A stretch of 64,000 nucleotides of DNA, taken from NCBI GenBank assembly GCA_039961735.1, contig JABRVX010000003.1:62001-126000 (forward strand). The letters run 5' to 3'. The translations under genes were made by a program, and so were the position numbers. The notes under the pieces were generated by a model. The model saw only the letters and a list, made by a program, of their open reading frames with translations. It was not told where the DNA came from and did no database searches. Positions 27,005 to 45,239 of the stretch are shown here, one piece after another; positions within the stretch are counted from its first letter, which is position 1, and the number at the start of each line of letters is the position of its first letter. Origin of the DNA: Fimbriimonadia bacterium (GTDB lineage Bacteria; Armatimonadota; Fimbriimonadia; Fimbriimonadales; JABRVX01).

Positions 27005-28885
27005 CTAGTTGTCGCCCGTCTTGCCGAAGTTCACGAGAACGATGTTGAGGTCGGCGAGACCCACCGAGCCGCTGCCGTCGTAGTCGCCCGAGCCGGTGCC
27101 GCCGAAGTTGATGAGTACCTGGTTCAGGTCGCCAAGCTCGATCTGGTTGTTGGCATTGCCGTCACCGCAGATCAGGTTGACGGTGCCGACGTTGTTCGAT
27201 CCGCCGGACAGCACCACATTGCCGAGCCTCTTCCACAGGTAGTTCGGCGCACCGAAGCGCAGGTCGTAGTTGCCGGGGCCGAGGGTCAACGTGGTGGTGA
27301 AGTTGCCCGACCCGTCCAGAGTGAGGGACTTGGTCTCCAGCACGGTACCGCCGCCGACAGCGTACACCTCCAGGGTACCCGTCACGCTACCGACGTTGAC
27401 ATGGAACTCGAGCCCGAGCTTGCCGCTGACCGAGACGGTGGTCGGGATGAGCTGGGATATGTGGATCTTGTAGGCTTCCTTGGTGTTAGCCGGATGACTC
27501 GCGTTGTTAGGCGGATCGGCGTCGGGGTTATAGCCCACGACACCACCAGTTAGGTACACGGTACCGCTAACGGGGTCCAGGCCGACAGCCACGTTGGCAC
27601 CCTTATACGGCATCTTTACGCTAGAGACAGTCCAGGTATCAGTCGTCGTATCGTAGATCTGGATGTCGTCTACGAGCGTTGCGAAGTCGTTTTCAGCCAT
27701 CGTGCCGCCAAAGGCAATCAGATAGCGGTCGAGGTAGCTGATCGCGGAGGCTCGCCATCCGGTTACCGGAGGAGCCGCCTTCGGGGTGACCACGCCGGAT
27801 AGCGGCACATAGGCATCGAGCCGGTTCGGCCCGCTAAGGATGTAGGCAGTACCGCCGATTCCCACTATGTTGGCGCGACGGTTCACGGTGTAACCGGCAC
27901 CGATCGGGTCCTCGGTCCAAGTGTCCGTGGCGAAGTCGTAGACTTCCATGTTGTTGTCTAGGGTGTTCCAGACGAACTTATCGCCGACCTGACCACCGGC
28001 GCCTCGTGCCTCGCCACCGTAGGTTACGGAAGCGCCACTCGACCACTCGCCGGTCGCGGGGTTGTAGATGTCCACGTCTCCTGGCTTCCAGTTCGGATAG
28101 CCGCCGAAGACATAGATCTCCTTCGTCCCGTCGTTGTCCTTGTCGTATGCGCCGCAGTTGGTCTGGGCGTAGCTGAAGTTACCGTTCGACAGTAGCGGCG
28201 GGTAGGCGCCCGCGTTGTAGCCATCGGCAACGCCGCCGGGTTCCGTATCCCAGTTGTTCATGCCGGTGTGCCCGAGCGACGTGGTGATGTAGATCTTGTC
28301 GTCTGGGTCGTTGATCCAGGTGTCCGGCACGTGCATCCAACTGCAGCACGTTCCCTCGAATACCAGATAGGTTACTCCGGCATCGTACACGACCTGGTTC
28401 ACGACCAGACCGAACGAGTTGTTCTCGCCGGCCTGAATGCCGCGGCCCGAAACGATCTTCACGAAGTCGCCGGGAAATATGGTGGTGCTCAGGTCGCCGA
28501 GCATGTAGACGGACAGAGCGTCGTTGTATACGACGTCCCCAGTGTTGACGAGCAGGTCCTGAGTGCCCGCAGTCTCCCAAGCAGCGCCTGTGTATGCGCT
28601 GACCTTGGACTGCCGGTTCCAGTCCCATGCGCGGGTACCTTCCTTAAGCTGAACGCGGTCCGAACCTACGCCCCAGCTCAGGTCAAACATGCCGTACCCG
28701 CCAATTACCCAGAACTTACCGTTGGCAAACGTGCTGGCCGAGCCCATGGTCGGCACCGCATAGTTGCCGATAGAGTCGCCGTAGGACCAGACGCAGGGGT
28801 CGTCGGCGATCTGAGTCCACTGCGCCACAGCGGCGCCACAAAGGGCCGATGCGACGAGCAGGGTTGAAATCCCTCGTCGTACCAT
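27005..28885 (-). CDS. Exported kelch-type beta-propeller protein with C-terminal dockerin-like module, copy 1
   Basis: The 626-residue protein has a signal peptide ending AVAQ, then about five kelch-like blades (GKFWVIGGYG; DGTKEIYVFGGYPNW; NMEVYDFATDTWTEDP; IQIYDTTTDTWTVSS). The C-terminal 190 residues hold a beta-sandwich with YDLRFGAPNYLWKRL and two calcium-loop repeats (GDGNANNQIELGDLNQVL; GDYDGSGSVGLADLNIVL), ending NFGKTGDN. It should be secreted or surface-held; no enzyme motif is seen. AAAGGAG lies 12 nt before the ATG, a long spacing shared by all three paralogues. Confidence 0.8.
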   Translation of the reverse strand: MVRRGISTLLVASALCGAAVAQWTQIADDPCVWSYGDSIGNYAVPTMGSASTFANGKFWVIGGYGMFDLSWGVGSDRVQLKEGTRAWDWNRQSKVSAYTGAAWETAGTQDLLVNTGDVVYNDALSVYMLGDLSTTIFPGDFVKIVSGRGIQAGENNSFGLVVNQVVYDAGVTYLVFEGTCCSWMHVPDTWINDPDDKIYITTSLGHTGMNNWDTEPGGVADGYNAGAYPPLLSNGNFSYAQTNCGAYDKDNDGTKEIYVFGGYPNWKPGDVDIYNPATGEWSSGASVTYGGEARGAGGQVGDKFVWNTLDNNMEVYDFATDTWTEDPIGAGYTVNRRANIVGIGGTAYILSGPNRLDAYVPLSGVVTPKAAPPVTGWRASAISYLDRYLIAFGGTMAENDFATLVDDIQIYDTTTDTWTVSSVKMPYKGANVAVGLDPVSGTVYLTGGVVGYNPDADPPNNASHPANTKEAYKIHISQLIPTTVSVSGKLGLEFHVNVGSVTGTLEVYAVGGGTVLETKSLTLDGSGNFTTTLTLGPGNYDLRFGAPNYLWKRLGNVVLSGGSNNVGTVNLICGDGNANNQIELGDLNQVLINFGGTGSGDYDGSGSVGLADLNIVLVNFGKTGDN

Positions 28886-28933
28886 CGAAGTTCGATGCTC
28901 CTTTCTAAATGGAGGCCTGTTGGCTTTGCAGTC

Positions 28934-28939
28934 ATTATA
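28934..28939 (-). promoter_or_regulatory. TATAAT -10 box, kelch copy 1
   Basis: TATAATG on the minus strand, about 49 nt before the ATG at 28885. The other two kelch genes have the same box at nearly the same distance. Confidence 0.55.
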
Positions 28940-29048
28940 TCGCACCTTCGTTCACGAAGCATCCGTTGAACAGAGCAAAGTTGCGGAAATCTGCTGGTTA
29001 AGAGGTCGAAGGGTCGAAAGACCCTGGTACGGAAGTGTCGCAAAGCGT

Positions 29049-29077
29049 CGGTCCAGCGCCCAACGGGCGCTGGACCG
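29049..29077 (-). terminator. 13-bp perfect hairpin after kelch copy 2
   Basis: CGGTCCAGCGCCC (29049-29061) pairs perfectly with GGGCGCTGGACCG (29065-29077) around a 3-nt loop, 30 nt past the stop of the gene ending at 29107. Only a weak T-rich tail (CTTTGCG) follows. Confidence 0.65.
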
Positions 29078-29106
29078 TGAGCTAACTTAGTGACAAACGT
29101 CAGCGA

Positions 29107-30969
29107 CTAGCTGTCGCCGGCTTTGCCGAAGTTCACGAGAACGATATTCAGGTCGGCGAGACCCACCGAACCACTGCCGTCGTAGTCGCCCGAACCAGTG
29201 CCACCGAAGTTGATGAGTACCTGGTTGAGGTCGCCAAGCTCGATCTGGTTGTTAGCGTTGCCGTCACCGCAGATCAGGTTGACGGTGCCAACGTTGTTGG
29301 TGCCACCAGAGAGGCTGACGTTGCTCAGCCTCTTCCACAGGTAGTTCGGCGCGCCGAAGCGCAGGTCGTAGGTTCCGGGAGCGACGCCCAAGTCCACGCT
29401 GAAGTTGCCCGACCCGTCCAGAGTGAGCGACTTCGTCTCGAGTAGCCCGCCACCGCCAGCGCCGTAGACCTGCAGGGTGCCGGTCACGCTGCCAACGTTG
29501 ACATGGAACTCGAGACCGAGCTTACCCGTTACCGTGACGGTGGTCGGGATGAGCTGCGACACATGGATCTTGTACGCATCGTTGACCCAGACGACGGACT
29601 CATTGAGACCGTTCGCGAAGTAGATCGTTCCGTCCGGAGCGATGGCCGCCGAGGCCGTGCTCGCCTTGTAGGGAGTCTTGATGGACGAAACGGTCCAGGT
29701 GTCGTTCACGGTGTCGTAGATCTGGATCGCGTCCGTAGCAGAACCTGCGCCACCCCCCGTGCGGCCGGCCAGCAGGATAATGTACTGTCCGTACTTTACG
29801 ATTGCGCCCTGGTTGGCGGTCACGGGCGGCGGGGTCTTCTTGACCCAAGTGCCGTCGTTGAGGTCAACCACCAGCGTGGTGTGAAGCCACGCGGGCGGGC
29901 TCGCGCCGTCCCAGCCCCAGAACACGTAGAGCTTGTCGCCGACCACTTCGCAGTGCTTCATCAGCGGCATACCGGCGGTAGCGTCACCGGGGTTCAGGAT
30001 GTCCATGTCGGACCAGGTCTCGGTGGACAGGTCGTAGGTGAACAGCTTGAACCAGGTCGGCGTTGCACCGCTCTGCTGCGTGATCCAGTAGAACTTGTTA
30101 CCGCTCTGGACGCCGCCGGGAGCCGGAGCATCGATGCCGGGGAATGCGCTCAAGTAGTCGTTGTCGCCAGCATCGCGCCAGTCGTTGGTCGCGTAGTTGT
30201 ATACGTCAACGCTGTGCGGTACCCAGTGCGGATAGCCGCCGAAGATAAAGATCTCCTGGATGCCGTCCGCGTCGGTGTCCCAAGCTGCGCACATGTTGGT
30301 GTAGGACTGGTAGCCGTGAGACTCGAAGGGCGGCATGCTGCCTCTCGCAGGCCACTGGATCAGTCCGTTGAGCCCGGAGACCGTGACCTTGAAGAAGCGA
30401 TCACCAGAGCCACCGAGCCACCAGTAGCAGACGCCATTGGCGCCACGTCGCACGAACTTGACCTCTCCGATACCGTCCGCGAAGGTGACGGATTCGACTT
30501 CGCCGTAGCAAGCGGCCGAATCGTCTGCAGCGATCACCTTGATCCAGTCGCCCGGAAAGATGACGCCGGTAAGGTCGCTGAGCGTCAGCATGGTATCTTC
30601 GTCGAGCTGGCCGGTGTCGGAAGTGGCTACTAACTGCGACTGCGTGCTTGCGGTCTCCCAAGTGTTGGTGACCGGGTCGTACAGGCTCATCTTGGAATGG
30701 CGGTTGGTGGTTGCCCAGTTCTTAGGCGTGTCCCGCCAACCGTCCTCCGTGTAGTCCGTGCCCGAGCGACCGCCCAGGATGTTGAACTTGCCGTTCGCGA
30801 AAACGGTGAAGGTGCGGTAAACGTTCAGCACCTGCGAATTGGTGGGTGTGAAGATGCTGTCCCCGTATGGCCAAACGGACGGATCATTCGGGATCGCCGT
30901 CCACTGGGCGGCTGCGAGGCCCACCAGACCGAGGGAGAGAACGATGGATGCGATACTGCGTCGTATCAT
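29107..30969 (-). CDS. Exported kelch-type beta-propeller protein with C-terminal dockerin-like module, copy 2
   Basis: The 620-residue paralogue has signal peptide MIRRSIASIVLSLGLVGLAAA, the same N-terminal WTAIPNDPSVWPYGDS start, kelch blades (GKFNILGGRSG; IFIFGGYPHWVPHSVDVYN; LFTYDLSTETWSDMD; IQIYDTVNDTWTVSS) and the same C-terminal module ending NFGKAGDS. Its last 470 nt are nearly identical to those of copy 1, far closer than the propeller regions, so the ends were recently duplicated or homogenised by gene conversion. AAAGGAG lies 13 nt before the ATG. Its own promoter and terminator make it a single-gene unit. Confidence 0.8.
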   Translation of the reverse strand: MIRRSIASIVLSLGLVGLAAAQWTAIPNDPSVWPYGDSIFTPTNSQVLNVYRTFTVFANGKFNILGGRSGTDYTEDGWRDTPKNWATTNRHSKMSLYDPVTNTWETASTQSQLVATSDTGQLDEDTMLTLSDLTGVIFPGDWIKVIAADDSAACYGEVESVTFADGIGEVKFVRRGANGVCYWWLGGSGDRFFKVTVSGLNGLIQWPARGSMPPFESHGYQSYTNMCAAWDTDADGIQEIFIFGGYPHWVPHSVDVYNYATNDWRDAGDNDYLSAFPGIDAPAPGGVQSGNKFYWITQQSGATPTWFKLFTYDLSTETWSDMDILNPGDATAGMPLMKHCEVVGDKLYVFWGWDGASPPAWLHTTLVVDLNDGTWVKKTPPPVTANQGAIVKYGQYIILLAGRTGGGAGSATDAIQIYDTVNDTWTVSSIKTPYKASTASAAIAPDGTIYFANGLNESVVWVNDAYKIHVSQLIPTTVTVTGKLGLEFHVNVGSVTGTLQVYGAGGGGLLETKSLTLDGSGNFSVDLGVAPGTYDLRFGAPNYLWKRLSNVSLSGGTNNVGTVNLICGDGNANNQIELGDLNQVLINFGGTGSGDYDGSGSVGLADLNIVLVNFGKAGDS

Positions 30970-31279
30970 CCTCAGATAGGTGCTCCTTTTCTAGTTTGAA
31001 GCCGGAAGGCTGCATACCCATTATACAGCAAGTTTATCGTTTAGTTATACTAAACATTTGACTTTCTTCCCTGAAAACCGCCGGAGAATGAAAGTTAACA
31101 ATTCTAAAGGGCCGCAGCCACTCACGCTATTAACCCGCGTTGATGACCGAATACGAACGATGATTAGGACCAAAGGACTTAAGCGGTTTACCGGCACAGC
31201 GGCTTGTAGGAGTCCAAAGCAGAGTGGGAAGCCGCAGAGATGGTGCTCTGTCGCGCACGACCTCAGAACGAACCGCTCA
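30970..31279. other. AT-richer intergenic region between kelch copies 2 and 3
   Basis: The stretch holds the ribosome site and -10 box of copy 2 (31020-31025). The rest, notably 31026-31170, is less GC-rich than the surroundings and has no supported frame. Nothing else is recognised. Confidence 0.5.
31020..31025 (-). promoter_or_regulatory. TATAAT -10 box, kelch copy 2
   Basis: TGTATAATG on the minus strand, about 51 nt before the ATG at 30969. Confidence 0.55.
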
Positions 31280-33079
31280 CTAGTTGTCACCCTGCTTACT
31301 GAAGTTGACGAGAACGATGTTGAGATCGGCAAGGCCGACGTGCCCGTCGCCGTCGTAGTCGCCGATTCCTGACTTCGCGAAGTTGATGAGGACGATGTTG
31401 AGATCGGCCAGATCCACCTGGTTGTTGCCGCTTCCGTCGCCGTTCAACAATGCGATGGTGCCGACTGCGTTGTCTCCGCGCGACAGGGTCACGCTGCTCA
31501 AGCGCTTGGCCAGGAAGTTCTGGGCGAGAAAGCGCAGATCATAGACGCCGGGCGAGATCCCTAGCGGGGCGACGAATCCTCCGGTAGCGCTGAGCTCCAC
31601 AGACGCGGCAGCTATGGGCTCCGTACCCCCCGGAGCGAAAACCTGAACTGCGGCCGGCACGCCCGAAGGGTCCAGGTGGAACTCGAGGTCGAGCACGCCG
31701 GAAATCCCACTCGTGAGGAGTGATGAAGCCTGGATGGAATAGGCATCGTTCCGCCATAAGACATTGTGATCGAGTCCGCCGGTTACGTAGACGATTCCCT
31801 CTGGCGAAATGCCTGCAGCAACGCCGCTCGCACGGTAGGGCAACCGGTACGGCGACACGAACCACGTGTCGCGGGTCGTGTCGTATACCTGGATGGCATC
31901 TACTGCGGTAGACGCGCCACTGCCGGATCGTCCGCCAAACAGTATCACATAATCGCCGTAGCGTACGGACGCACCCTGGTTAGCAGTAATCGGTGGAGGC
32001 GCGAGGGTCGCGAAGCTCCCCTGCAACACATCGTAGCGCACCGTTTTCTTCGAAGAGGAGTCGCCTCCGAAGTAGTAAACTGCGCCGCTCGGACCTATCT
32101 CGGGGAAGCCCTGGCCGGTGCACAGGAAGTCGAGCGTTAGGCCCGGCACGAGGTCGAGTGTCCATGTGTCGGAGAGCAGGTCGTACACCTGTACCTGGCC
32201 GCCTTCGTCCCGCCCCATCCAGCAGAACAAATCGCCCACCTGCGCTCCGGCAGCACGCTGTTCGTTGACCGACCCTGGAAGGTTACCGCTCGCTCTAGAC
32301 CAGGAGTTGGTGGCTGGGTCGTACACGTCCACGTTGTTGGGGGTCCAGTGCGGGTAGCCGGAGAAAAGGTAAATCTCCTTCTCGCCGTCGCCATCCCTAT
32401 CGTGCGCCGCGACCATCGTGTGGTTGCCTGCCTGATAACCCTCTCCCGCGCGTGCCACGTCCAGCTCGTTACCGTTGTTGATGGGCGTCGGGCCCACGAC
32501 CGTCACAATAAACACTTTGTCGCCGGGTTTCGGGCTCCATGTAGGTGGCACCGTGCCTCGAGAGAGGGTTACGGTCGTCGCCATGCCGTCGAACGAGAGG
32601 CTAGCTACTCTCCCTACGAACGACTTCACCTCGCCCGGCACTATGCCATCGCCCGACTCGACACGAATCTGGTCGTCCACTGCGAGGTCGTCGGTGACAT
32701 CGCCCTGCACCAGGAAGCTGCTCGCATCCAGACGCACGACTTCACCGGTGTAGGCGAGCTGCGACTGCACCCCACCACCTTCCCACGTGCCGGAGACGGG
32801 GTCGAGAACACTCGCATGAGAGTGCCGGTTCGAGTTGGGCCAGACGATGAGGCCCTCTTCGTAGTCGAACCCCGAGCGGCCGCCGAACACGTAGAACTTG
32901 CCGTTGGCGAACACCGAGAAAGAGCGGCTGAGGCTGATCTGCTGGCTGTTCGCAGGTTGCGAGATGCTATCGGCGTAGGGCCAGATGCAGGGGTCCGGGG
33001 GCAGGGCGGTCCACTGCGCAACTGCGGTGGCGCAGACCGATACGATGCAGATGCCAAGCCAGATGATGCGAGCTGTCAT
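31280..33079 (-). CDS. Exported kelch-type beta-propeller protein with C-terminal dockerin-like module, copy 3
   Basis: The 599-residue paralogue is more diverged than copies 1 and 2. It has a signal peptide (IIWLGICIVSVCATAVA), then WTALPPDPCIWPYADS, kelch-like blades (GKFYVFGGRSGFD; IYLFSGYPHWTPNNVDVYD; VQVYDLLSDTWTLD; IQVYDTTRDTWFVSP), and the C-terminal YDLRFLAQNFLAKRL sandwich plus twin repeats ending NFSKQGDN. I start at 33079, with AAAGGAG 11 nt before it, rather than 33118, because it gives a clean signal peptide. Likely function is surface binding, as for its neighbours. Confidence 0.78.
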   Translation of the reverse strand: MTARIIWLGICIVSVCATAVAQWTALPPDPCIWPYADSISQPANSQQISLSRSFSVFANGKFYVFGGRSGFDYEEGLIVWPNSNRHSHASVLDPVSGTWEGGGVQSQLAYTGEVVRLDASSFLVQGDVTDDLAVDDQIRVESGDGIVPGEVKSFVGRVASLSFDGMATTVTLSRGTVPPTWSPKPGDKVFIVTVVGPTPINNGNELDVARAGEGYQAGNHTMVAAHDRDGDGEKEIYLFSGYPHWTPNNVDVYDPATNSWSRASGNLPGSVNEQRAAGAQVGDLFCWMGRDEGGQVQVYDLLSDTWTLDLVPGLTLDFLCTGQGFPEIGPSGAVYYFGGDSSSKKTVRYDVLQGSFATLAPPPITANQGASVRYGDYVILFGGRSGSGASTAVDAIQVYDTTRDTWFVSPYRLPYRASGVAAGISPEGIVYVTGGLDHNVLWRNDAYSIQASSLLTSGISGVLDLEFHLDPSGVPAAVQVFAPGGTEPIAAASVELSATGGFVAPLGISPGVYDLRFLAQNFLAKRLSSVTLSRGDNAVGTIALLNGDGSGNNQVDLADLNIVLINFAKSGIGDYDGDGHVGLADLNIVLVNFSKQGDN

Positions 33080-33135
33080 GGCGATGCGGACTCCTTTCCA
33101 AATCGAGGCCACCGCCACTCGCGGCGACCCTGTGC

Positions 33136-33141
33136 ATTATA
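33136..33141 (-). promoter_or_regulatory. TATAAT -10 box, kelch copy 3
   Basis: TTATAATG on the minus strand, about 57 nt before the ATG at 33079. Confidence 0.55.
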
Positions 33142-33168
33142 ACGTGATCCGGCGAGTTTGCTGCCCTC

Positions 33169-35574
33169 CTATGGCGCCCAGGGGTCGATCGCTCCGTAGG
33201 GGTAGGCGCCGTCAATCCGAGCAAAGAACATGCTCCGGTTGGTGATCACTTCGACCCCATACAACACCCCTTGGGGGGCGACGTGGAGAGACGCGCGCCA
33301 GGCATCGCCCGAAAGCTGCATCGCGTCGCGCGTCCAATCGGCCTCCGACCGAAATGGCTTGGACAGCAAGCGCACGGCCATGATGCGCTCGTCCCGCCCA
33401 AGGCCGCTGATCCGGGCCGCCACCTCCACCGTCTGCTCTCCGCGCAACCTGTCCACGGCAGTGACCTCGACCGAAACACGGATGTTTGCACCATCCCCCA
33501 TCGGCCTGTTCTGCACGCCCGGTGGCTTGTCCGACACCGGCATCGCCACGAAGTCCTTCTCGTCCTGATCGAACAGCTTCACGGACTGCGACCACTGATA
33601 GGTCTCCGTGTGCATACGAAGGCGGTCTATGATCGGGCGGAAGTGCCTGTCCCCCTCCTCGGCTAGAGCAACCCAGGCAGCTTTCGATTTTGCTGTCAGC
33701 TCCCGCGCCGCCTCGACGCGCTTCCGGTCGGAAGTGACCTCGGCCAGCGCGTACTCGGTAGCTGCGCGGAGCCGCGTGGCATAGTAGCGCGCGAGCAGCA
33801 CGAGCATCCTCGCATCGGTCTTGAGGTCGTCCAGCGATTTGCTCGCTCCGGACGGAATCGCTCGTTGCCTACCTTCAGTCTCCGCTGCCATGCGCTCCAG
33901 CATCTCCGCAGCCTGCACCGGAGTGCGGCGACCCGTGAAGTTGCCTGTGGTCACCTCGCGCGCGTACTCAGCGCATCCCATCGCGAAGTACGTGTCGAAC
34001 GGGAGGGCGCGCGCCCACTGACGAATGGACCCGCCCCACTCCAGCTCCGGAGCGTGATCCCTGTGGTCCGGGCCCAGTGAGAACTGCGTCTTGATGGTGG
34101 GTAGGATGCGACTCATGCTCTGCAGCAGTCGGTACGCCGCGTCCCCGTGTTTGCCGCCCCACTGCCGCTTGGCCTCCATGCGGAACAGGTCTTCTGTAGT
34201 CCCTGGATCGTAACCCAGGCGACCCCACATCAGATACCACAGCGGGTTCCGCTCGTACTCCCAACGGAACATCGGCTCGGGGTGCAGGAAATCGTCCATC
34301 GGGTAGTAGGTGCAGAAAGGCTCCACCGTGAAACCTACCGAGCCGGCCAAGTTCGTCGTCTTGACACACGCCCGTATATGCTCGTAGTCCGCCCATTGAA
34401 ACACTCGGTTCGTACCGTTCGCGCGGATCTGCCAGATCACTTTGTACTGACGCGGATAGAACAGGTAGTCCTGATACGAGTAGTCTCGCCATCCTGCCAT
34501 ACGCCCGCCTGCCAGGTGCCATGGCGGACCCATCTGCTCCCCGTTGTATTTGATCTCGATCAGGAACTTGTCGGGATACATCGCCCCCAGCTCCATCAGC
34601 TTCTCTTTCTTTGCTCCCCACGTACGTGTGTAGAGCGGTAGCGGCCTGCCCATTTCCTCGAGTGCGGCCACGTAGCTCTTGGCATAGAAGTCCTCGCCAT
34701 AGCCCGACTCGCCGATGCGGAACCCTATCATCGCAAGGTCCGGGCAGCGCTCGATGATCTGCTTCAGCCCCTCTTTGGTATAGGAGATGAAGTCGTCCAC
34801 GGAGCGTTCTGGCGCTTGGCGGCAGCCCGGCCAGTTCCAACCGCCGGTGTAGTTCATGATCCCGACCCGGATGCCACGTTGCTTCGCCATGGTGCACACT
34901 TTGGCCAGCATCTGCATGTTCTTCTCGGCCTGAGCCGGCTCCATGCCCACGTCCGGGTACTTTTTGCTCACCACGAAGTATGGCCACATGTTTGGGAAGC
35001 GCGTGGTCTGCAGGTCGTACATGCCGTGCAGATCCAACAGGTTGATGCGTGCGCGCGCCAACAGGTCGAGATATCCGCGCCAGAACTCCTCGTCGGTGAA
35101 CCACCAGTGCTCCCAATCGCGCTTGCCTTCCGCGTCCGCGCGTGGGATGGAGAGGAACGGGTTGACGGCGCGCACCTCTATGGCCGGTGTGTGTGTTTCA
35201 GCCTTGTTAGGGAAGGCGCCTGCGATGCCCTTCATGCGCACTCGCTCCGCCAGATCGAGCAGGGCGTACATGAGGCCGATCTCGCCGCCCCCCTTGCAGA
35301 CGACTCCTGCCGAGTAGGGCTCGAAGACATAATCCTCGGCATTCATCTCAGACACGGCCATCGCGGGAAGTGGGTAGCGGCGTGCGACAACCGCTATCAT
35401 CTTCTTGTCGCCATCGGCCCACGTGTGCACGTTGACCTCTGTGCGACGCTCGGCCAAGGCATCACGCAACTCACCTGCGGCAAAGGCCGCCGGCTCGCAA
35501 CCCGACGGTATCATGATCTGGATAGGCTCTGCGATTAGAGACGTTGCTACGCTCAGAGCGCAAAGGAATATCAT
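33169..35574 (-). CDS. Exported glycoside hydrolase-like protein (GH67/GH20-type architecture)
   Basis: The 801-residue protein has a short signal peptide (MIFLCALSVATSLIA) and an N-terminal alpha/beta domain (ACEPAAFAAGELRDAL-like opening, then GGGEIGLMYALLDLAERV) of the kind that precedes the barrel in GH20, GH67 and GH84 enzymes. A TIM-barrel-like core follows (INLLDLHGMYD; GIRVGIMNYTGGW; FLIEIKYNGEQMG), then a helical C-terminal part. It probably cleaves a glycan outside the cytoplasm, perhaps a uronic acid linkage, but the family is not certain. AGGGAGG fixes the start. It starts 12 nt after the PfkB kinase stop, so it shares that operon. Confidence 0.55.
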   Translation of the reverse strand: MIFLCALSVATSLIAEPIQIMIPSGCEPAAFAAGELRDALAERRTEVNVHTWADGDKKMIAVVARRYPLPAMAVSEMNAEDYVFEPYSAGVVCKGGGEIGLMYALLDLAERVRMKGIAGAFPNKAETHTPAIEVRAVNPFLSIPRADAEGKRDWEHWWFTDEEFWRGYLDLLARARINLLDLHGMYDLQTTRFPNMWPYFVVSKKYPDVGMEPAQAEKNMQMLAKVCTMAKQRGIRVGIMNYTGGWNWPGCRQAPERSVDDFISYTKEGLKQIIERCPDLAMIGFRIGESGYGEDFYAKSYVAALEEMGRPLPLYTRTWGAKKEKLMELGAMYPDKFLIEIKYNGEQMGPPWHLAGGRMAGWRDYSYQDYLFYPRQYKVIWQIRANGTNRVFQWADYEHIRACVKTTNLAGSVGFTVEPFCTYYPMDDFLHPEPMFRWEYERNPLWYLMWGRLGYDPGTTEDLFRMEAKRQWGGKHGDAAYRLLQSMSRILPTIKTQFSLGPDHRDHAPELEWGGSIRQWARALPFDTYFAMGCAEYAREVTTGNFTGRRTPVQAAEMLERMAAETEGRQRAIPSGASKSLDDLKTDARMLVLLARYYATRLRAATEYALAEVTSDRKRVEAARELTAKSKAAWVALAEEGDRHFRPIIDRLRMHTETYQWSQSVKLFDQDEKDFVAMPVSDKPPGVQNRPMGDGANIRVSVEVTAVDRLRGEQTVEVAARISGLGRDERIMAVRLLSKPFRSEADWTRDAMQLSGDAWRASLHVAPQGVLYGVEVITNRSMFFARIDGAYPYGAIDPWAP

Positions 35575-35586
35575 GCCGAACCTCCC

Positions 35587-37373: not shown

Positions 37374-37453
37374 GTGGGGTTCGTCTCCTGCGACCTGCCT
37401 GCCACGGGATTCGAGGGCGAGGCGTCTTCGCCTGCACGTCACGCGCGCGCCGG

Positions 37454-37459
37454 TACAAT
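37454..37459 (+). promoter_or_regulatory. TACAAT -10 box of the isomerase gene
   Basis: GGTACAATC lies 33 nt upstream of the ATG at 37493, leaving a short leader with ribosome site GAGG. Confidence 0.45.
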
Positions 37460-37492
37460 CGGCCCTACGGCACGACATCCCGCCGAGGTGAC

Positions 37493-38935
37493 ATGATGGC
37501 GACTTCTGCGAACGGCCCGCGACCCGGTCCGAGGCTCGGACTGCTGATAACCTCGATTGACGTGTTCAACCCGGAAGCGAAGGAGCGCTCGGAAGCCGGC
37601 ATCCGGGCCTACTTCGACGAACTGGTGGCGAGCGGTAAGGTGGACGCGGGCTCGGTCGTGGTGGGGCGGATCGAGCGGCCACACGAAGCGGTAGCCGCGG
37701 CGGAGGAGTTCGCACAGGCGTGCGTGGACGTGGTTGCCATCGCGAACGTCGCCTTTCCCAATGGACAGGTTTTCCTCGCGCTGGCCACTAATCCCCATCT
37801 GTCCCGTCTACCTCTGGCCGTGATCGCCGATCCGGAGCCCAAGGGGGACGAGTGGGCGACCAACGCTTGGTGCGGCGCGATCATGAACAACTTCGCGGCG
37901 CATCGTCTGGGGCGGCCGATCGCTGCTATCCCTGGACCATCGGATGCCCGGTCATTCCGCGATGAGTTCGAAAGGCTGTTGCGGGTGGCCGCCACGATCA
38001 AGGCGATGCGACACGAGTTCATTGGGCGCTATGGCGACGCGCCCGGTGGTTTCCACTCGGCGACGGGAGACCAGCTCGCGTATGCCGCGAAGTTCGGGAC
38101 CAGGGTGGACACGGTGGACCTTAGCGCGGTCCGCGAGTGCTTCACGACAGGCAAGACCAGTGGGTACCTGGCCGACGAGAGCTTCACCGACGACGACGTA
38201 AGAGCAACCATGCAGTCGGTGCGCGAGGGCAGGGAAGTGAGCGTGGACGACCAGATGCTGGAGAGGGGCTGCCGGATGTACCATGCCCTCCGCTGCATGG
38301 CGCGTGCCAATGGTCACACGTCGCTCGCTCTGCGCTGCTGGCCCGAGGTGAACGAACCACACATCGGAGTAAGCCTGTGCCTATGCATCAGTCTGCTGTT
38401 AGGGAACGCCGATGTGCGGGCCGCTGCGTGCGAAGCCGACTGGCCGGCAGCAGTGGTGCAGTTGTTAGGCACTCTGCTAACAGGACAGCCGGCTGTCTGC
38501 CTGGACTGGGTGAACTACACTGGTGGATCGGACATCGTGCAGCTCGGGCACTGCGGCGTCGGGCTAATGGGTCACATGGCAGCGGGCTGCCAGTGCGAGG
38601 TGGTTACAGCGCATCCCGTGCTGCGGCAGGGAGGACGGCACATGGGCCCCGTGCACATCGGGCAGTACGAGTACGGGCCGAAGACCGGAATCTGCATGAT
38701 GCAGGACGTGGACCGCCGATTTCGAATGCTGGCGTTCACCGGCGAGAGCGGACCGGAGACGGACCGTGGGATGAAGTACGTGGCTGCGGACGTTCGCTTC
38801 CCGAAGTATCGCGAGCTGCATCGGCTGATCCTGGAAGGTGGATTTCCGCATCACCTCGCCGTCGCGTTCGGGGACATCCGCGAAGATCTGCGGCTGCTGT
38901 GCAAGTTCCTGGAGGTCGAGTACGTGGAGCCGTAG
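37493..38935 (+). CDS. L-fucose/arabinose isomerase-family protein
   Basis: The 480-residue protein resembles the COG2407-type fucose isomerase-related family: an N-terminal Rossmann-like part (RLGLLITSIDVFNPEAKERS), a middle with MRHEFIGRYGDAPGGFHSATGD, and a C-terminal substrate domain (LRCWPEVNEPHIGVSLCLCISLLL; CLDWVNYTGGSDIVQLGHCG). These enzymes interconvert an aldose and a ketose with a divalent metal. It diverges from the aldolase-kinase-glycosidase operon with 119 nt between starts, so all four genes may answer to one regulator. GAGG precedes the ATG; the next ATG at 37496 is also possible. Confidence 0.75.
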   Translation: MMATSANGPRPGPRLGLLITSIDVFNPEAKERSEAGIRAYFDELVASGKVDAGSVVVGRIERPHEAVAAAEEFAQACVDVVAIANVAFPNGQVFLALATNPHLSRLPLAVIADPEPKGDEWATNAWCGAIMNNFAAHRLGRPIAAIPGPSDARSFRDEFERLLRVAATIKAMRHEFIGRYGDAPGGFHSATGDQLAYAAKFGTRVDTVDLSAVRECFTTGKTSGYLADESFTDDDVRATMQSVREGREVSVDDQMLERGCRMYHALRCMARANGHTSLALRCWPEVNEPHIGVSLCLCISLLLGNADVRAAACEADWPAAVVQLLGTLLTGQPAVCLDWVNYTGGSDIVQLGHCGVGLMGHMAAGCQCEVVTAHPVLRQGGRHMGPVHIGQYEYGPKTGICMMQDVDRRFRMLAFTGESGPETDRGMKYVAADVRFPKYRELHRLILEGGFPHHLAVAFGDIREDLRLLCKFLEVEYVEP

Positions 38936-39038
38936 GTGCGCCCCTGCCATCCGGAAGGAGCGCTCGACCGTTTCGTGTGTGGGTGAGCAAGCAGAAGGCG
39001 CGATTCTATGGTGTGACAATTACGACCTACACCTATCA

Positions 39039-40007
39039 CTACCTCGCCTCTGCAGGGGAGAAGCGATCTACGCTGAGGCGGAAGATCTCGCGCTGTTCGT
39101 TGGTCACCAGCAGCGTGCGGTCGTCTACGAAGCAAACGCCTTCGCACTGCTTGCCACCCGAGAAAACGAAGCGCCTGGCCTTGCCGGATAGCAGCTTGTT
39201 ATCCTGAGCCGGAACGTCGAAGAGCCACACCGAGGAGATGGGAAAGTGCGTCAACACAGCTAGCAGCTTTCCGTCCGGGGAGATATCGGCAGCCGTCACC
39301 CACCCACCCAGGTCTTGCTTGGAGTCCAGCAGCGTCAGCACATTCACTCGATCCGTGTGCTCCGTGTCGAGACGGTACAGCTTCGTGCCGTTCTCCGGCA
39401 GGTCGCCGGACGCACCCGCGCGATGTTTGGTTAGGAAGTGCAGCTTGCCCTCGTGTACGAAGAGAGCTTCGCAGTCGAAGTGCCACCTATCGCCGGGGAA
39501 CGCGTCTTGATCGGGATACGCGACCGGCAGCCACTTCAGAACCCTGGTCCTCGACGTTGCGGCCGGGTTGGGCTCCTTCAGCACGTACACTCCGAGATCG
39601 CGTCGCGCGTTGCCGTTGTTACCCATGTCCCCGATGTATAGAGTGTCGCCCTCGATGGCGATATCCTCCCAATCGAGGTTGTGTGCCGCATCTAGTTTGA
39701 TCCCTGGATACGGCTCCTTGCCATCCATGGGTTGGTTCGCGTAGTACCTGTCCCCGACCCAGCTAGGCATAACCACCGATCCATCGGCACGAACGGCGAA
39801 GATGCGTGCCTCGTCTCCACTGTCATTGTGCACCCAATACACGTCTTCGTAGGTCCGGCTCTTGACGATGCCACTCATCTCGTTGATCGGTGGGTGCATG
39901 ACGGTGACGGTGGATGCGAGTCTCGAAGGCTCCTGCCTCTCTTGCACCGGTGCGTGCGTGCCCAGCGAAGCTACAACTGCCAGCCCAACAGTGGTCAAGA
40001 CTCTCAC
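39039..40007 (-). CDS. Exported beta-propeller protein of unknown function
   Basis: The 322-residue protein starts at a GTG (40007) with AGGAGGGGG 6 nt upstream, giving a signal peptide (VLTTVGLAVVASLGTHA). The mature part is a run of beta blades: VYWVHNDSGDEARIFAV, NLDWEDIAIEGDTLYIGDMGNNG, ALFVHEGKLHFLTKH, VTAADISPDGKLLAVLTH. The pattern is that of the esterase-like phytase/SdiA-regulated propeller families. No catalytic residues can be named. It is the last gene before the converging isomerase. The longer frame to 40184 runs into a repeat. Confidence 0.7.
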   Translation of the reverse strand: MRVLTTVGLAVVASLGTHAPVQERQEPSRLASTVTVMHPPINEMSGIVKSRTYEDVYWVHNDSGDEARIFAVRADGSVVMPSWVGDRYYANQPMDGKEPYPGIKLDAAHNLDWEDIAIEGDTLYIGDMGNNGNARRDLGVYVLKEPNPAATSRTRVLKWLPVAYPDQDAFPGDRWHFDCEALFVHEGKLHFLTKHRAGASGDLPENGTKLYRLDTEHTDRVNVLTLLDSKQDLGGWVTAADISPDGKLLAVLTHFPISSVWLFDVPAQDNKLLSGKARRFVFSGGKQCEGVCFVDDRTLLVTNEQREIFRLSVDRFSPAEAR

Positions 40008-40075
40008 TGCTGTCCCCCTCCTGTTCTCCTCTTCCCGTGCCTCCACCGCCCTTTCAGTGGACGCCTTCCGCTCAT

Positions 40076-40101
40076 GCCTCCATCCTTCCTCGGATGGAGG
40101 C
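40076..40101. repeat. GCCTCCA-type palindrome
   Basis: GCCTCCATCC (40076-40085) pairs perfectly with GGATGGAGGC (40092-40101). It begins CATGCCTCCA, as do related palindromes at 23657 and in folK at 52859. Confidence 0.6.
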
Positions 40102-40178
40102 AGGTACACAGTACCTCGGTCACCACCCCATCTCTCGACCCGGTGGTGGGGCGAGAAGAAGGTAAGGGCTGTCTGACC

Positions 40179-40285
40179 CGTCATGCCGAGCCCGTCGAAG
40201 CATGCGATCGCTGGACGCGACGCCTGCGTCTTCGGGTGTTACCATGCCATCATCGGTCGCATGGTTCGACAGACTCGGCATGACG
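40179..40285. repeat. Paired inverted REP-like elements
   Basis: The 32-nt arm at 40179-40210 (starting CGTCATGCCGAG, containing GTCGAA and CATGCGA) is repeated in reverse at 40254-40285 with four mismatches. The inner spacer has its own small hairpin (GACGC/GCGTC). A single related copy lies at 45611. The layout is that of bacterial interspersed mosaic elements. Confidence 0.7.
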
Positions 40286-40315
40286 ATTGGGTGTGACCGC
40301 GGCTGAGACAACCAC

Positions 40316-41620
40316 CTAGCCATCCGCCTTTCCACGTCGCCGTTCCTCCATCCGCGCGCGCAGCTTGGGTTCGATGCCCTGATCGCTCGGCTCGTAGTAG
40401 GGAAGTTCCCAGTCTCCCTCGGGCAGGTACTGCTGCTCCACGTAGTGGCCGGGGAAGTCGTGAGGATACACGTACCCCTCGCCCCCCTCGAGTTTCGGCG
40501 CGAAGGAGGCCCCGCTAGACCGTAGATGCTTCGGCACCGGAGGCGGCTGCCGCTTGCGCACGTCGGCTGTCGCGCGCGTGATCGCCACCATGGCCGCGTT
40601 CGACTTCGGTGCACAGGCCAGATAGGTGACGGCCTGTGCGAGCGAGAGCTGGGCTTCTGGCCAACCGATTCGCTCCACGACGTGAAACGCCGCCATAGCA
40701 AGCACCAACGCCATCGGGTCGGCATTCCCGATGTCCTCGCTGGCCAGGATCACGAGCCTGCGTGCGATAAAGCGAGGGTCTTCACCCGCTTCGATCATCC
40801 GCGCCAGGTAGTGCAGCGCGGCGTCTGGGTCGGAGCCTCTCACCGATTTGATGAATGCGGAGATGGTGTCATAGTGCGCATCGCCAGCGCGGTCGTACTT
40901 CGGTGCGGGTGCCTGCTGCGCCGCCTCCACATGTGCGAGATTGATGGAACCTTCGGTAGGGGCGAGGTTTGCGGCGGCCTCTAGGAGATTGAGCGCGATT
41001 CGTGCATCACCACCTGCCAATCGCACCACGTGCGCCAGAGCATCTGGTTCGCACTCACGCCCTATCCCGCGCTCCGTGTCGGCGAGCGCTCGCTCGACGA
41101 TGACGCGCACCTCGTCATCGGTCAGCGGCTTCAGAATCAGCACTCGGCACCGCGACAGCAGTGGGGATGCGAGTGCGAACGATGGGTTCTCGGTGGTTGC
41201 GGCAACCATCTCCAGCGTGCCGTCCTCCACGTAGCCCAGGAGCGCGTCCTGTTGTGTCCGGGTGAAGTGGTGCACCTCGTCCAAGAACAGCACCGTTCGC
41301 TTGCCTGTGCTCGCCTTGCGGTTGCGGGCCGCCTGTGCCAGCTTGCGGATATCGGCAATCCCCACCGACACCGCGCTGTGCGGCTCGAAGTGAGCGTTGG
41401 AGTGTGCCGCGATGATGCACGCGAGCGTGGTCTTGCCGCAGCCCGCCGGCCCCCAAAGGATCACCGAACCCAACTTGCCCTCGCGGATAAGTCGGTGCAG
41501 CGGCGCTCCGGGCGCGAGAATATGAACCTGGCCGACGTACTCCTCCAGAGTGCGCGGCCGCATGCGGGCCGCTAGCGGCTGGTCGAGCCCGATTTCGGAG
41601 GGCTCTTCGAAGAGGGTCAT
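40316..41620 (-). CDS. rarA: Replication-associated recombination protein A (AAA+ ATPase)
   Basis: The 434-residue ATPase matches RarA/MgsA: MRPRTLEEYVGQ, Walker A GPAGCGKT (57-64), Walker B LFLDEVHHF, then the C-terminal tetramerisation region (YDTISAFIKSVRGSDPDAALHYLARMIEAGEDPRFIARRL). It acts at stalled replication forks with single-strand binding protein. The start at 41620 (MTLFEEPSE) has AAGG 5 nt upstream. An extended -10 box at 41823 provides its promoter, so it is probably a separate transcript from the subtilases upstream. Confidence 0.93.
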   Translation of the reverse strand: MTLFEEPSEIGLDQPLAARMRPRTLEEYVGQVHILAPGAPLHRLIREGKLGSVILWGPAGCGKTTLACIIAAHSNAHFEPHSAVSVGIADIRKLAQAARNRKASTGKRTVLFLDEVHHFTRTQQDALLGYVEDGTLEMVAATTENPSFALASPLLSRCRVLILKPLTDDEVRVIVERALADTERGIGRECEPDALAHVVRLAGGDARIALNLLEAAANLAPTEGSINLAHVEAAQQAPAPKYDRAGDAHYDTISAFIKSVRGSDPDAALHYLARMIEAGEDPRFIARRLVILASEDIGNADPMALVLAMAAFHVVERIGWPEAQLSLAQAVTYLACAPKSNAAMVAITRATADVRKRQPPPVPKHLRSSGASFAPKLEGGEGYVYPHDFPGHYVEQQYLPEGDWELPYYEPSDQGIEPKLRARMEERRRGKADG

Positions 41621-41822
41621 GCACACCTTCTTCCGCGAACCACCCCGCAATCACCGTGTGCCGGCGATGTTCTGGAACCCCGAACACAGGGTGGGCGCAG
41701 CCGAGCCGCCGCCGGAACGAGGTACGCTCCTTAGAACGACACGAGTCCGACGCCCTAGAACACGCTATCGGCTCCGAACACCTTGGGCAAGCACGCGTGT
41801 CGCAGGGTGGTTCTCTATCTAC

Positions 41823-41831
41823 AGTGTACCA
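41823..41831 (-). promoter_or_regulatory. Extended -10 box (TGGTACACT) of rarA
   Basis: TGGTACACT on the minus strand, identical to the box before natA, about 200 nt upstream of rarA and just past the stop of the subtilase gene. Confidence 0.5.
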
Positions 41832-41832
41832 G

Positions 41833-43467
41833 CTACGGATCGGCGGTCTTAGCAAAGTTCACGAGGACCATCGTCAAGTCTCCGATGTCCACCCGGCCCG
41901 AGCCGTCCAGGTCGAGGGAGGCGAAGGCTTTGTCGAAGTTGACCAGCAGGAGCGTGAGGTCTGCGAGGTCCACGATGGCGTCCCGGTTGGCGTCCCCGCC
42001 CGGCAGACTCACGCTCAGACCATCGAGCGCCTCGCCCACCTCCACGTTCTGCCCGACGAGCCTGCGGGCGAGGAAGGGCTTCCCCGGCGTCTGAAAGCGG
42101 ATATCGTACTGCCCGCTGGACTGGAACATCAGGTCGAACGCGCCACCCTCGCCTGGGTTGAATGCCTGGCTCTCGATGTGTTGTGTGCCGTTCATCAGAG
42201 AAGCGATCACCAAGATGGTGCGGGGGTCGAGGTGGCCAGGCAGGAACAGGCTGCCGCGAACAGTGGCCCGTGTGGCGCGCAGAAGAGCCCGAAAGGCGTT
42301 GATCCGACCGAAGCGCACCCACTCGCCGATGGCGTCCGCGTTCTGCTCGATGTAGTTGCGCACTGCTAGGGCATGCGCCTTCGTGCGGGGCACGTCGGGC
42401 AAGTCGCGGGCCCGGGCCCCGTACAGCAGCGCGGCCAGTCCGGAAGCGAAGGGTGCTGCATAGGAAGTCCCCGAGTCGATGCCGTAGGCGCCATCCGACA
42501 GGGTAGATAGGATGTCATCTCCCGGAGCCGCAACATCTACGTATTGGTCCGGTCCCCAGTTGTACTGCGACCATGGCCAGCGCAAATCACCCGGCGAGGT
42601 AGCTCCTACGTCAATCACTACTTCATACGCTGCGGGGTAGACAGGCCAGGTGGCTGCGCTGTTGCCAGCAGCCCCTACGAGTACTGCTCCGGCATCCCAT
42701 GCAGCGAGACAAGTTTCCTCCACCGCGGGGTCGTGTACCGGCCCACCGAGGCTCAGGTTGATGACGTGACAGCCGTTGGTGGTGGCCCACTGGATCGCTT
42801 CGCGCACGTCTGCAGTCGTACCTTGCGCGAATTGGTCGAGGGCCTTCAGAGGTATCAACCTTACGTTAGGTGCGGTGCCTGCAATGCCAATCCCATTGTC
42901 GGTCATGGCCCCGACGATGCCTGCAACCATGGTGCCGTGCCCGTTGTCGTCGGCGATGTTGGTGTTGTTCTCGATGGTGTTCCAGCCTGGGCCGACGTTG
43001 AGCCACAGGTCCGGATGATCCGATCGCACCCCCGTGTCCACGATGGCTACGCGCACGTCGGTTCTGCCACGGTAGAGGTCCATCGCCTGTTCCCAGCGGA
43101 TGGCAGGGAGACCCCACTGGAACGGATAACTCGGGTCGTTGGGTTGCCAGAGCGCTCGATAGATATAATTAGGTTGAGCGTCCTGCACGAACGGGAGTGA
43201 CTTCGCTGCCCTGACCAGGAGTTCCACGTCAGCATCCGTAGGTGCTTTAAAGAGCGCGAACCGCCCATCGCTGAGAGTTCTTTCGTGGGTGACTCCGACG
43301 TGCCGCTCGACCTCGGCGATGACGGCAGGCTGCACGGCAGAGAATCGAACGAGCACGGCGCCCGGCTCCCACTCGCCGGATGGTGGCATCGGCATCTGGG
43401 ATGCGAGCGCAGCAGTCGCGAAGGCGGCTGCGTAGGTCGGAAGCGCCAATCGCACAAGCAGCATCAT
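41833..43467 (-). CDS. Exported subtilisin-family (S8) peptidase with C-terminal dockerin-like module, copy 1
   Basis: The 544-residue protein has a signal peptide and a fervidolysin-like propeptide (GAVLVRF ... YIYRALWQPNDPSYPFQWGLP). The complete S8 triad is Asp144 (IVDTGV), His177 (NGHGTMVAG) and Ser335 (SGTSYAAPFASG), with the oxyanion Asn in GAAGNSA. After the protease comes the module YDIRFQTPGKPFLARRL plus twin calcium-loop repeats (GDANRDAIVDLADLTLLLV; DLDGSGRVDIGDLTMVLV), ending NFAKTADP. The start (43467, or ATG at 43464) is 20 nt after the upstream subtilase stop, so the two are one operon. Confidence 0.88.
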   Translation of the reverse strand: MMLLVRLALPTYAAAFATAALASQMPMPPSGEWEPGAVLVRFSAVQPAVIAEVERHVGVTHERTLSDGRFALFKAPTDADVELLVRAAKSLPFVQDAQPNYIYRALWQPNDPSYPFQWGLPAIRWEQAMDLYRGRTDVRVAIVDTGVRSDHPDLWLNVGPGWNTIENNTNIADDNGHGTMVAGIVGAMTDNGIGIAGTAPNVRLIPLKALDQFAQGTTADVREAIQWATTNGCHVINLSLGGPVHDPAVEETCLAAWDAGAVLVGAAGNSAATWPVYPAAYEVVIDVGATSPGDLRWPWSQYNWGPDQYVDVAAPGDDILSTLSDGAYGIDSGTSYAAPFASGLAALLYGARARDLPDVPRTKAHALAVRNYIEQNADAIGEWVRFGRINAFRALLRATRATVRGSLFLPGHLDPRTILVIASLMNGTQHIESQAFNPGEGGAFDLMFQSSGQYDIRFQTPGKPFLARRLVGQNVEVGEALDGLSVSLPGGDANRDAIVDLADLTLLLVNFDKAFASLDLDGSGRVDIGDLTMVLVNFAKTADP

Positions 43468-43486
43468 CCCCGGCAATGCTACTCCA

Positions 43487-45160
43487 CTACGGGTCGGATG
43501 TCTTAGTGAAGTTGACGAGCGCAATCGAGAGGTCGAGCAGGTCCACTACCCCGTCGCCATTCAGATCGCCACTGCCTGCGCCCGCGAACTGCAGCAGGAT
43601 GATGTTCAGATCGGCGATATCCACGGCGCCAGTGCCATCCGCGTCGCCGTTCAAGAGCGTGGCATCTACCGTAGACGCCGCGGCAACGCGAGACAAGCCC
43701 ACGTTCGGAACGCGTCGAGCGAGGAACTTGCTCGACGCCGAGAACCGCACGTCGTACGTGCCCGGAACCGTGAAGGTGGCGGAGTACGAGCCGTCCTCGT
43801 CCAGGGCAATCGGCTTGGATGCCACCAGGTTCGAGGTGCCGGGCTCGAAGAGTTGGATCGTGATTGGCACGGTCTGCGGTGCGACGTGTCCCTGTAGTGT
43901 TAGTGTGCCCGAGATAGCTGCAGGCAGGTTAAGAGCGGCATTCAGTGCCGCATCGAGTTTGATGCGCCCATACGTGACCCACGAGCCAACGTTGTGGCAA
44001 TTGGACTCGATGAGTTGTCGTACCAGCGATGCGGCCTCCGGGCTGCGTGGAGTATCTGTTCTGGGCTCCGTCAACACAGAGTAGAGCAGTGCTGCCTCCG
44101 CGGAGACATGTGGTGTGGCCATAGACGTCCCGCTGTCATATCCATAGGTCCCGCCCAGGAAGCACGAGTAGATGCTAGTTCCGGGTGCCGCGACATCCAC
44201 CCACTGGTAGTCACCCTGGTTGAAGTTAGATGATCCCGCGCGAAAGTCCCCCGATGTCGAGGACGCCACGGCGATGCACTCGACGAACGATGCAGGGTAG
44301 GTCGGGAAGTAGGAGTTGTTGTTGCCCGCTGCCACCACGACGAGTACGCCGCTTGCCACGGCATACTGAACGGCGGTGAGCACGCTTGCTGGCGGGACGG
44401 CGGTGCCCGCTAGGCTCATGTTGATCACGTGGGCGCCGTTGTTCACGGAGTAGTTGATGCCGTTCGCAACGTTCTCCCACGTGCCATTGCCGCTGGCATT
44501 CAGGATCTTCACCGGTAGTAGCATGGCGGTGGGGTTCATGCCGGCGATTCCGGTAGCGTTGTTCGTTGCTGCAGCCGCAATGCCTGCCACGTGTGTCCCA
44601 TGCTTGTGGTCGTCTTCGGCGACGGCGTCGTTGTTCACGAAGTCCCAGCCGGAGTTGATGATCTTAGACTGCAGGTCGGGATGGCTGAGGGCGATGCCGG
44701 TGTCGCAGATGGCAATGATGACCGAGGACTTACCCTGGTAGGTGTCCATCGCTGCAGGCCACCCGACCTTGGGCAGGCCCCACTGAAGACCGTAGAACTC
44801 ATCGTCTGGCCAAGCGATCCGAACGATACCGTTCGGCTCGGCGAACTCCACACTCGGGTCGAAGCGGAGCCACGAGGAAAGGCCGACCACATTGGCGGTC
44901 GGAGCCAGCTTGATCTTGTAGATGCCGAGGTCCGGGATGGAAGGAAGCAGAGAGCCGCCGAGCCGCCCAGCAAGGCACTGCATACGTTCTGGTGTAGTGC
45001 CCTGCCGGAACTTGATCAGCATCTCTCCAGGGACGTACTCGAACGTTGGTGTCTGCGCTCGCGCGTTGAACTGGGCATGCGCGAGGCAGAGCAGTGCCAC
45101 AGCGGCGGTCGTGGCGGCGCCGCGACGCAGCGCCGCTAGGGCAATCCTGGTCGAATTCAT
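43487..45160 (-). CDS. Exported subtilisin-family (S8) peptidase with C-terminal dockerin-like module, copy 2
   Basis: The 557-residue protease has a signal peptide ending near LAHAQ, a short propeptide (YVPGEMLIKFRQG), and triad Asp153 (ICDTGIA), His187 (KHGTHVAG) and Ser346 (SGTSMATPHVSA), with oxyanion Asn in AAGNNN. Its C-terminus carries YDVRFSASSKFLARRV and twin repeats (GDADGTGAVDIADLNIILL; DLNGDGVVDLLDLSIALV), ending NFTKTSDP. GGAAAGG sits 4 nt before the ATG at 45160. It is first in a two-protease operon. Likely role: extracellular protein breakdown or processing of surface proteins with the same tail. Confidence 0.88.
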   Translation of the reverse strand: MNSTRIALAALRRGAATTAAVALLCLAHAQFNARAQTPTFEYVPGEMLIKFRQGTTPERMQCLAGRLGGSLLPSIPDLGIYKIKLAPTANVVGLSSWLRFDPSVEFAEPNGIVRIAWPDDEFYGLQWGLPKVGWPAAMDTYQGKSSVIIAICDTGIALSHPDLQSKIINSGWDFVNNDAVAEDDHKHGTHVAGIAAAATNNATGIAGMNPTAMLLPVKILNASGNGTWENVANGINYSVNNGAHVINMSLAGTAVPPASVLTAVQYAVASGVLVVVAAGNNNSYFPTYPASFVECIAVASSTSGDFRAGSSNFNQGDYQWVDVAAPGTSIYSCFLGGTYGYDSGTSMATPHVSAEAALLYSVLTEPRTDTPRSPEAASLVRQLIESNCHNVGSWVTYGRIKLDAALNAALNLPAAISGTLTLQGHVAPQTVPITIQLFEPGTSNLVASKPIALDEDGSYSATFTVPGTYDVRFSASSKFLARRVPNVGLSRVAAASTVDATLLNGDADGTGAVDIADLNIILLQFAGAGSGDLNGDGVVDLLDLSIALVNFTKTSDP

Positions 45161-45239
45161 GGCACCTTTCCTCTCGGCAAGAATCACAATGGGCTCAGGC
45201 AAGCTGGTCCGTGCATGAGTTCTGCCGCAAATCCTGAGC

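Follow-up and report, generated by a model that had tools for sequence, protein, structure and literature searches.

In clostridia, the calcium-binding module of the XDoc type serves as the plug for cellulosome assembly. To our knowledge, cohesins are the only known partners of dockerins, and dockerins without cohesins are a recognised puzzle. The type-II XDoc dyad of cellulosomal scaffoldins consists of an X-module and a dockerin, the former featuring a short helix between strands 1 and 2 (PMC5141474). In the type-II dockerin of B. cellulosolvens, the second calcium is held by Asp41 to Asp52, which makes Met50 position 10 (p10) and Phe60 p20 of the F-hand; with Asp19 as p12 of repeat 1, Met17 is p10, Met21 p14, Gln25 p18, and Phe27 p20 (PMC8063739). 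The contacts of CipB are Leu147/Phe148 at p10/p11, Ile154 at p17, Phe124 at p20, and Gly125/Asn158 at p21 (PMC5141474). The position numbers for the residues of both papers were counted in this analysis, and the contact positions in solved type-II complexes are p9, p10, p11, p14, p17, p18, p20, and p21. Outside clostridia, a dockerin/cohesin complex was proposed for Ca. Stygibacter (Cloacimonadota), where enzymes with signal peptides (S8, C25, and GH) carry C-terminal dockerins and a scaffoldin of 3,755 aa carries tandem cohesins (PMC8542988). The GC-type dockerin NF041540 is likewise a C-terminal dockerin tag, but its model of 67 positions has no space for an X-module.

The window is a stretch of 64,000 nucleotides from an Armatimonadota genome of 3.24 Mb. 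Its PNPase is closest, at 53–61%, to those of Chthonomonadales and Fimbriimonadales genomes, and the order is probably Fimbriimonadales. Five of its ORFs, all on the minus strand, end in a common C-terminal module of approximately 144 residues. The features, named by their profile and model matches, are:

27005..28945, minus strand: carrier K1, with signal peptide, kelch beta-propeller, and C-terminal XDoc module (Pfam Kelch_1 5.6e-11; module E 2e-70 against the A1 profile)
27173..27445, minus strand: K1 X-module, a carboxypeptidase-regulatory-like beta-sandwich (AlphaFold2 strands E4 to E91; PF13620 sub-threshold at 0.0026; alignment to 4wi0)
27008..27172, minus strand: K1 dockerin, two predicted F-hand calcium loops with helices, end NFGKTGDN
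29107..30969, minus strand: carrier K2, with signal peptide, kelch propeller, and XDoc module
29110..29547, minus strand: K2 XDoc module (X-module 29275-29547, dockerin 29110-29274), sharing 87% identity with that of K1
31280..33118, minus strand: carrier K3, with signal peptide, kelch propeller, and XDoc module (Kelch_6 5.5e-18)
31283..31720, minus strand: K3 XDoc module (X-module 31448-31720, dockerin 31283-31447), sharing 55% identity with that of K1
41833..43524, minus strand: carrier S1, a subtilase (S8) with fervidolysin-like prodomain and XDoc module (PF00082 8e-45, PF22148 4.7e-6)
41836..42276, minus strand: S1 XDoc module (X-module 42001-42276, dockerin 41836-42000)
43487..45202, minus strand: carrier S2, a subtilase (S8) with fervidolysin-like prodomain and XDoc module (PF00082 4.9e-48, PF22148 9.5e-11; Dockerin_1 only 0.38)
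43490..43930, minus strand: S2 XDoc module (X-module 43655-43930, dockerin 43490-43654)

At their C-terminal end, the five ORFs all carry the motifs that the first-pass annotation had described as a shared module. The five modules have 31 invariant columns in common—including YD.RF, L..R, GD...D.L...L..F, and NF.K..D—and 5–6 residues follow the last NF. The same annotation had called the N-terminal domains unrelated, which holds genome-wide, where the hosts are diverse, but not in the window: since the three kelch proteins are paralogues and both subtilases are S8, the window contains two host families, not five. The carrier tails inspected lack the LPXTG motif and end NFG..GD(P) with no helix after it, in agreement with the earlier reading that neither LPXTG nor PEP-CTERM tails are present.

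As judged by profile and model comparisons, the module is an X-module–dockerin dyad of the kind found in type-II cellulosomal scaffoldins. In an hmmsearch of the PDB, the profile of 62 modules from the window genome (A2) matches 4wi0 at E 3.2e-13, covering positions 6-144 of 146, followed by 4u3s (7e-13) and CipA 2b59 (4e-12); 3kcp, 5g5d, and 5k39 are also matched. The whole dyad thereby aligns with those of Acetivibrio cellulolyticus ScaA (4wi0/4u3s) and Clostridium thermocellum CipA (2b59/3kcp) and CipB (5k39/5m0y) at E 3e-13 to 1e-6. The AlphaFold2 model of the module (pLDDT 97.4, pTM 0.90) is one well-packed unit and features the short helix between strands 1 and 2 of the X-module described in PMC5141474. 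Its ten best PDB matches in Foldseek are all type-II XDoc, with TM of 0.73–0.76 over approximately 160 columns. What had been noted as a beta-sandwich has, accordingly, a carboxypeptidase-regulatory/X-module fold, and the "calcium-loop repeats" correspond to the pair of dockerin F-hands. The ligand positions 1, 3, 5, and 12 are kept in both loops of the 62 modules and position 9 in most, from which two calcium-binding loops per module are predicted. The C-terminal place and the Phe closing both helices are further features shared with the scaffoldin dyads. However, the modules of the window genome are 22–25% identical to them, have a different contact code and a shorter linker between the F-hands, and occur on approximately 70 proteins rather than on one or two scaffoldins. 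At E ≤ 0.01, the 62 modules are matched by CarboxypepD_reg in 18 cases, by NF041540 in 16, and by Dockerin_1 in just 11—so that standard annotation overlooks the system. In the window, NF041540 reaches 10.5 bits for S1 and 13.2 bits for S2, below its cut-off of 29 bits, and has no match in K1–K3.

The profile of the five window modules finds 84 places in the genome, approximately 60 of them at E < 1e-16, which is far above chance. The module lies no more than 6 residues from the C-terminus in 75 ORFs, 66 of which have both F-hands, so about 70 exported proteins of this genome share the XDoc tail as their C-terminal end; the search for further carriers proposed with the first reading thus found the module well beyond the window. 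By a crude rule, a signal peptide is predicted in 66 of 74 carriers compared with 2 of 11 other window genes, and several carriers failing the rule are truncated ORFs. The placement at the C-terminus of exported proteins has one clear exception. Genome-wide, the hosts comprise peptidases (S8, M28, M12B-like, and C25), kelch and PD40 propellers, beta-helix, C-type lectin, and CARDB proteins, along with one phosphatase-like domain and one melibiase-like enzyme; numerous hosts have no Pfam domain. This spectrum differs from that of a cellulosome: apart from the one melibiase-like enzyme, dockerin-bearing glycoside hydrolases for plant cell walls are not seen among the 25 commonest host families.

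Arrays of 20–124 copies occur in several Armatimonadota families, with near relatives lacking them. Among 31 genomes of the order, the family of the window genome has 76 copies, all sampled members of family f2 have 26–124, and some of family f3 have 93 and 20; in family f5 and most of f3, the array is absent or nearly so. In a survey of 251 genomes of the phylum, in which at most 15 places per genome were scored, 55 carry at least one copy at 1e-10, and the count reaches nine or more in 32. Among the papers searched, the word dockerin was not found in those naming Fimbriimonas, Chthonomonas, or Armatimonadota, and none of those combining dockerin with Armatimonadetes deals with such tag arrays.

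The PEP-CTERM/exosortase system resembles the arrays in placing a C-terminal tag on dozens of exported proteins of the same genome. Exosortase is found in 28 of the 31 genomes of the order, and the window genome has 34 PEP-CTERM tails. However, the PEP-CTERM tail model is short, with 24 positions, compared with a folded dyad of 144 residues. A trade-off between the two was considered and dropped, as their counts are uncorrelated (rho 0.01); PEP-CTERM/exosortase is distinct from the XDoc array with which it shares the genome.

The contact positions were compared in 122 modules from seven genomes and five lineages, those of the other genomes being the top-scoring ones. Phe at p20 and Gly at p21 are near-invariant throughout. 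The 62 modules of the window genome feature Leu/Ile at p10 in approximately 88–91% and Phe at p20 in 89–94%; p10 is Asp in f2. The lineage codes read LxDLNxVL (window genome), DADLLxVLF (f2), LFDFGxLV (f8), and IGD(Y/F)(S/A)xLS (G029). The known type-II complexes have a hydrophobic cohesin contact at p14, where the window genome has Asn and the other lineages have Gly, Leu, or Ser/Ala. For the X-module, pairwise identity is 0.27 both within and between lineages; for p10, p11, p13, p14, and p18, it is 0.52 within and 0.13 between. Of the 139 columns, the 13 that are most lineage-informative all fall within the F-hands of the dockerin, and 11 of them are contact positions from the literature (hypergeometric 5e-11; within the dockerin 4e-6)—statistics that are descriptive only, since there are five lineages and the modules were picked by high score. 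Positions p13 and p17 may have a role in core packing instead of contact. X-module identity is 25% in genome G005 and 23% in G011, and yet the six code positions are 100% identical across the sampled copies and both repeats. Because the X-module drifts and synonymous codons at the code positions vary, recent duplication or gene conversion does not explain this uniformity. The window's own lineage has a looser code, with 50% within-genome identity at the code positions, below the other lineages. As read from these alignments, each lineage has its own near-fixed code, with much the same residues in the two repeats, and the X-module bears no such signal; selection by a single receptor common to all tags of a genome would produce this pattern.

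The module probably acts as a docking tag that carriers throughout the genome bear at their C-terminus, all fitting one receptor shared within the genome. In the proposed mechanism, the N-terminal signal peptide would export each carrier and the X-module would brace the dockerin, whose two calcium-loaded F-hands would present two near-equivalent helices. Either helix could plug into the shared receptor, giving a dual binding mode; this receptor would sit at the cell surface or belong to an extracellular scaffold. It may be a highly divergent cohesin or another protein and would co-evolve with the tags, so that each lineage would have its own contact code.

The first-pass annotation had proposed a sorting or docking tag with a cohesin-like receptor, and here the results diverge: XDoc homology, C-terminal place, and lineage code speak strongly for a docking tag, but the search for cohesin-like domains, run with PF00963 and with a profile built from 27 cohesins of the phylum (A4), found none in the window genome or the other array genomes searched. 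The Pfam model has no match over cut-off in this genome and its relatives, and neither profile finds a credible cohesin in 23 array genomes. The lone weak match in the window genome (E 0.02-0.07) is a beta-galactosidase-like (GH2-like) enzyme and, hence, a false match; the weak A4 matches that were inspected look, on reading, like a glycosyltransferase, an MraY-like protein, outer-membrane proteins, and others. No array genome searched shows a cohesin, which leaves the tag without its known partner; in this, the arrays differ from the scaffoldin XDoc systems, from the cellulosome with its cohesin scaffoldin, and from Ca. Stygibacter with its tandem cohesins. Still, a true but highly divergent cohesin of a non-cellulosomal system, hidden from profiles, has a chance a little short of even. 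Most Ruminococcus cohesins escape PF00963 and related profiles, and AlphaFold2 alone recovered them (PMC11557425), and the Phe at p20 together with the hydrophobic p10 fits cohesin-binding dockerins. Cohesins are also present elsewhere in the phylum, at E ≤ 1e-3 in 33 of 251 genomes; in the five genomes of genus g59, the gene of a single-cohesin lipoprotein directly adjoins that of a protein ending in a dockerin, which is a precedent in the phylum for a cohesin on a lipoprotein. A dockerin re-purposed to a new, non-cohesin partner seems the less likely form of the docking tag, at perhaps one chance in a few. It would fit the residues at p14 (Asn in the window genome, Gly, Leu, or Ser/Ala in other lineages) and the lack of overlap between cohesins and arrays, the former occurring in 0 of 32 array genomes versus 33 of 219 others (Fisher p 0.011, uncorrected for kinship among phylogenetically clustered genomes). 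An undetected cohesin is, however, weak evidence of its absence, and the analysis found no other candidate.

Two further explanations dispense with such a receptor. The module could be a calcium-stabilised C-terminal cap or folding aid, in line with its intact calcium loops, its well-packed model, and the lack of a detectable partner. This is improbable: a cap needs no lineage-specific, repeat-symmetric contact identity while the X-module drifts to approximately 25%, and related families do without the module altogether. A type IX secretion signal, recognised by a SprA/PorU-like machine, would likewise be a C-terminal beta-sandwich on many exported proteins, C25 and S8 peptidases included, and a family of outer-membrane proteins matches residues 587-691 of the SprA model. 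None of 23 array genomes, however, has a match to SprA itself (TIGR04189) over cut-off; all 30 further genomes searched have the partial match equally, and 28 of these have at most a few modules; and the fold is that of XDoc, which makes this reading highly implausible. Three alternatives fit less well (ALTERNATIVES): type IX secretion, for want of SprA over cut-off; PEP-CTERM, by its different tail and uncorrelated numbers; and the partnerless cap, which leaves the code unexplained.

The docking-tag reading makes these arrays a strong case of dockerins without cohesins: approximately 70 dyads in one genome, 20–124 in relatives, and a contact face that looks selected by a partner. A bolder picture—genome-wide surface display in several Armatimonadota families, with the XDoc plug fitting a non-cohesin receptor and the code co-switched at least three times—is speculative and rather doubtful. 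As near relatives lack the array, the receptor can be searched for by comparing array and non-array genomes. Its discovery would reveal how the secretome is displayed in a poorly studied phylum and would provide mutually distinct plug-and-socket sets for protein engineering.

The XDoc module, an X-module followed by a dockerin of two F-hands, is C-terminal in the carriers of the genome to which the window belongs, with one clear exception: the protein at L093:18-2279 (-) has it at the N-terminus, immediately after a signal-like segment, and Pfam recognizes nothing in the approximately 590 residues that follow except for a weak FlgD_ig match. A paralogous group of carriers (loci L065, L066, and L070) features SSGAP or similar at the N-terminus, a long insertion separating the two F-hands, and a terminal GP.RW or similar in place of GD(P). 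The genome has two further proteins whose terminal X-module is paired with just one F-hand, as though half a dockerin sufficed:
L062:1272-1631 (-), X-module and single F-hand at the protein end
L037:4633-4995 (-), X-module and single F-hand at the protein end

The listed ORF of the subtilase S1 and the end of the subtilase S2 share 38 bases (window 43487-43524); the true start of S1 probably lies further downstream than listed, near MMLLVRLALP. The window also contains:
20339-21796 and 22067-23524 (-), adjacent pair of very similar flagellin genes
45721-48188 (-), two adjacent genes for methyltransferase-corrinoid system-like proteins, which by reading only look like uroporphyrinogen decarboxylase/MtaA-like and MtaB-like proteins

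Nearly all Fimbriimonadales searched, with or without arrays, have a family of outer-membrane proteins, about 850-1100 aa long (L272, L281), in which one domain matches positions 587-691 of the model of the type IX translocon SprA.

In genus g59 of family f21, all five genomes (loci L231, L233, L237, L239, and L241) encode a lipoprotein that has a lipobox followed by a G-rich linker and carries a single cohesin domain. In each, its gene directly adjoins, on the downstream side, that of a secreted protein with a C-terminal two-repeat dockerin. This gene pair is a minimal anchored cohesin–dockerin pair, separate from the array system.
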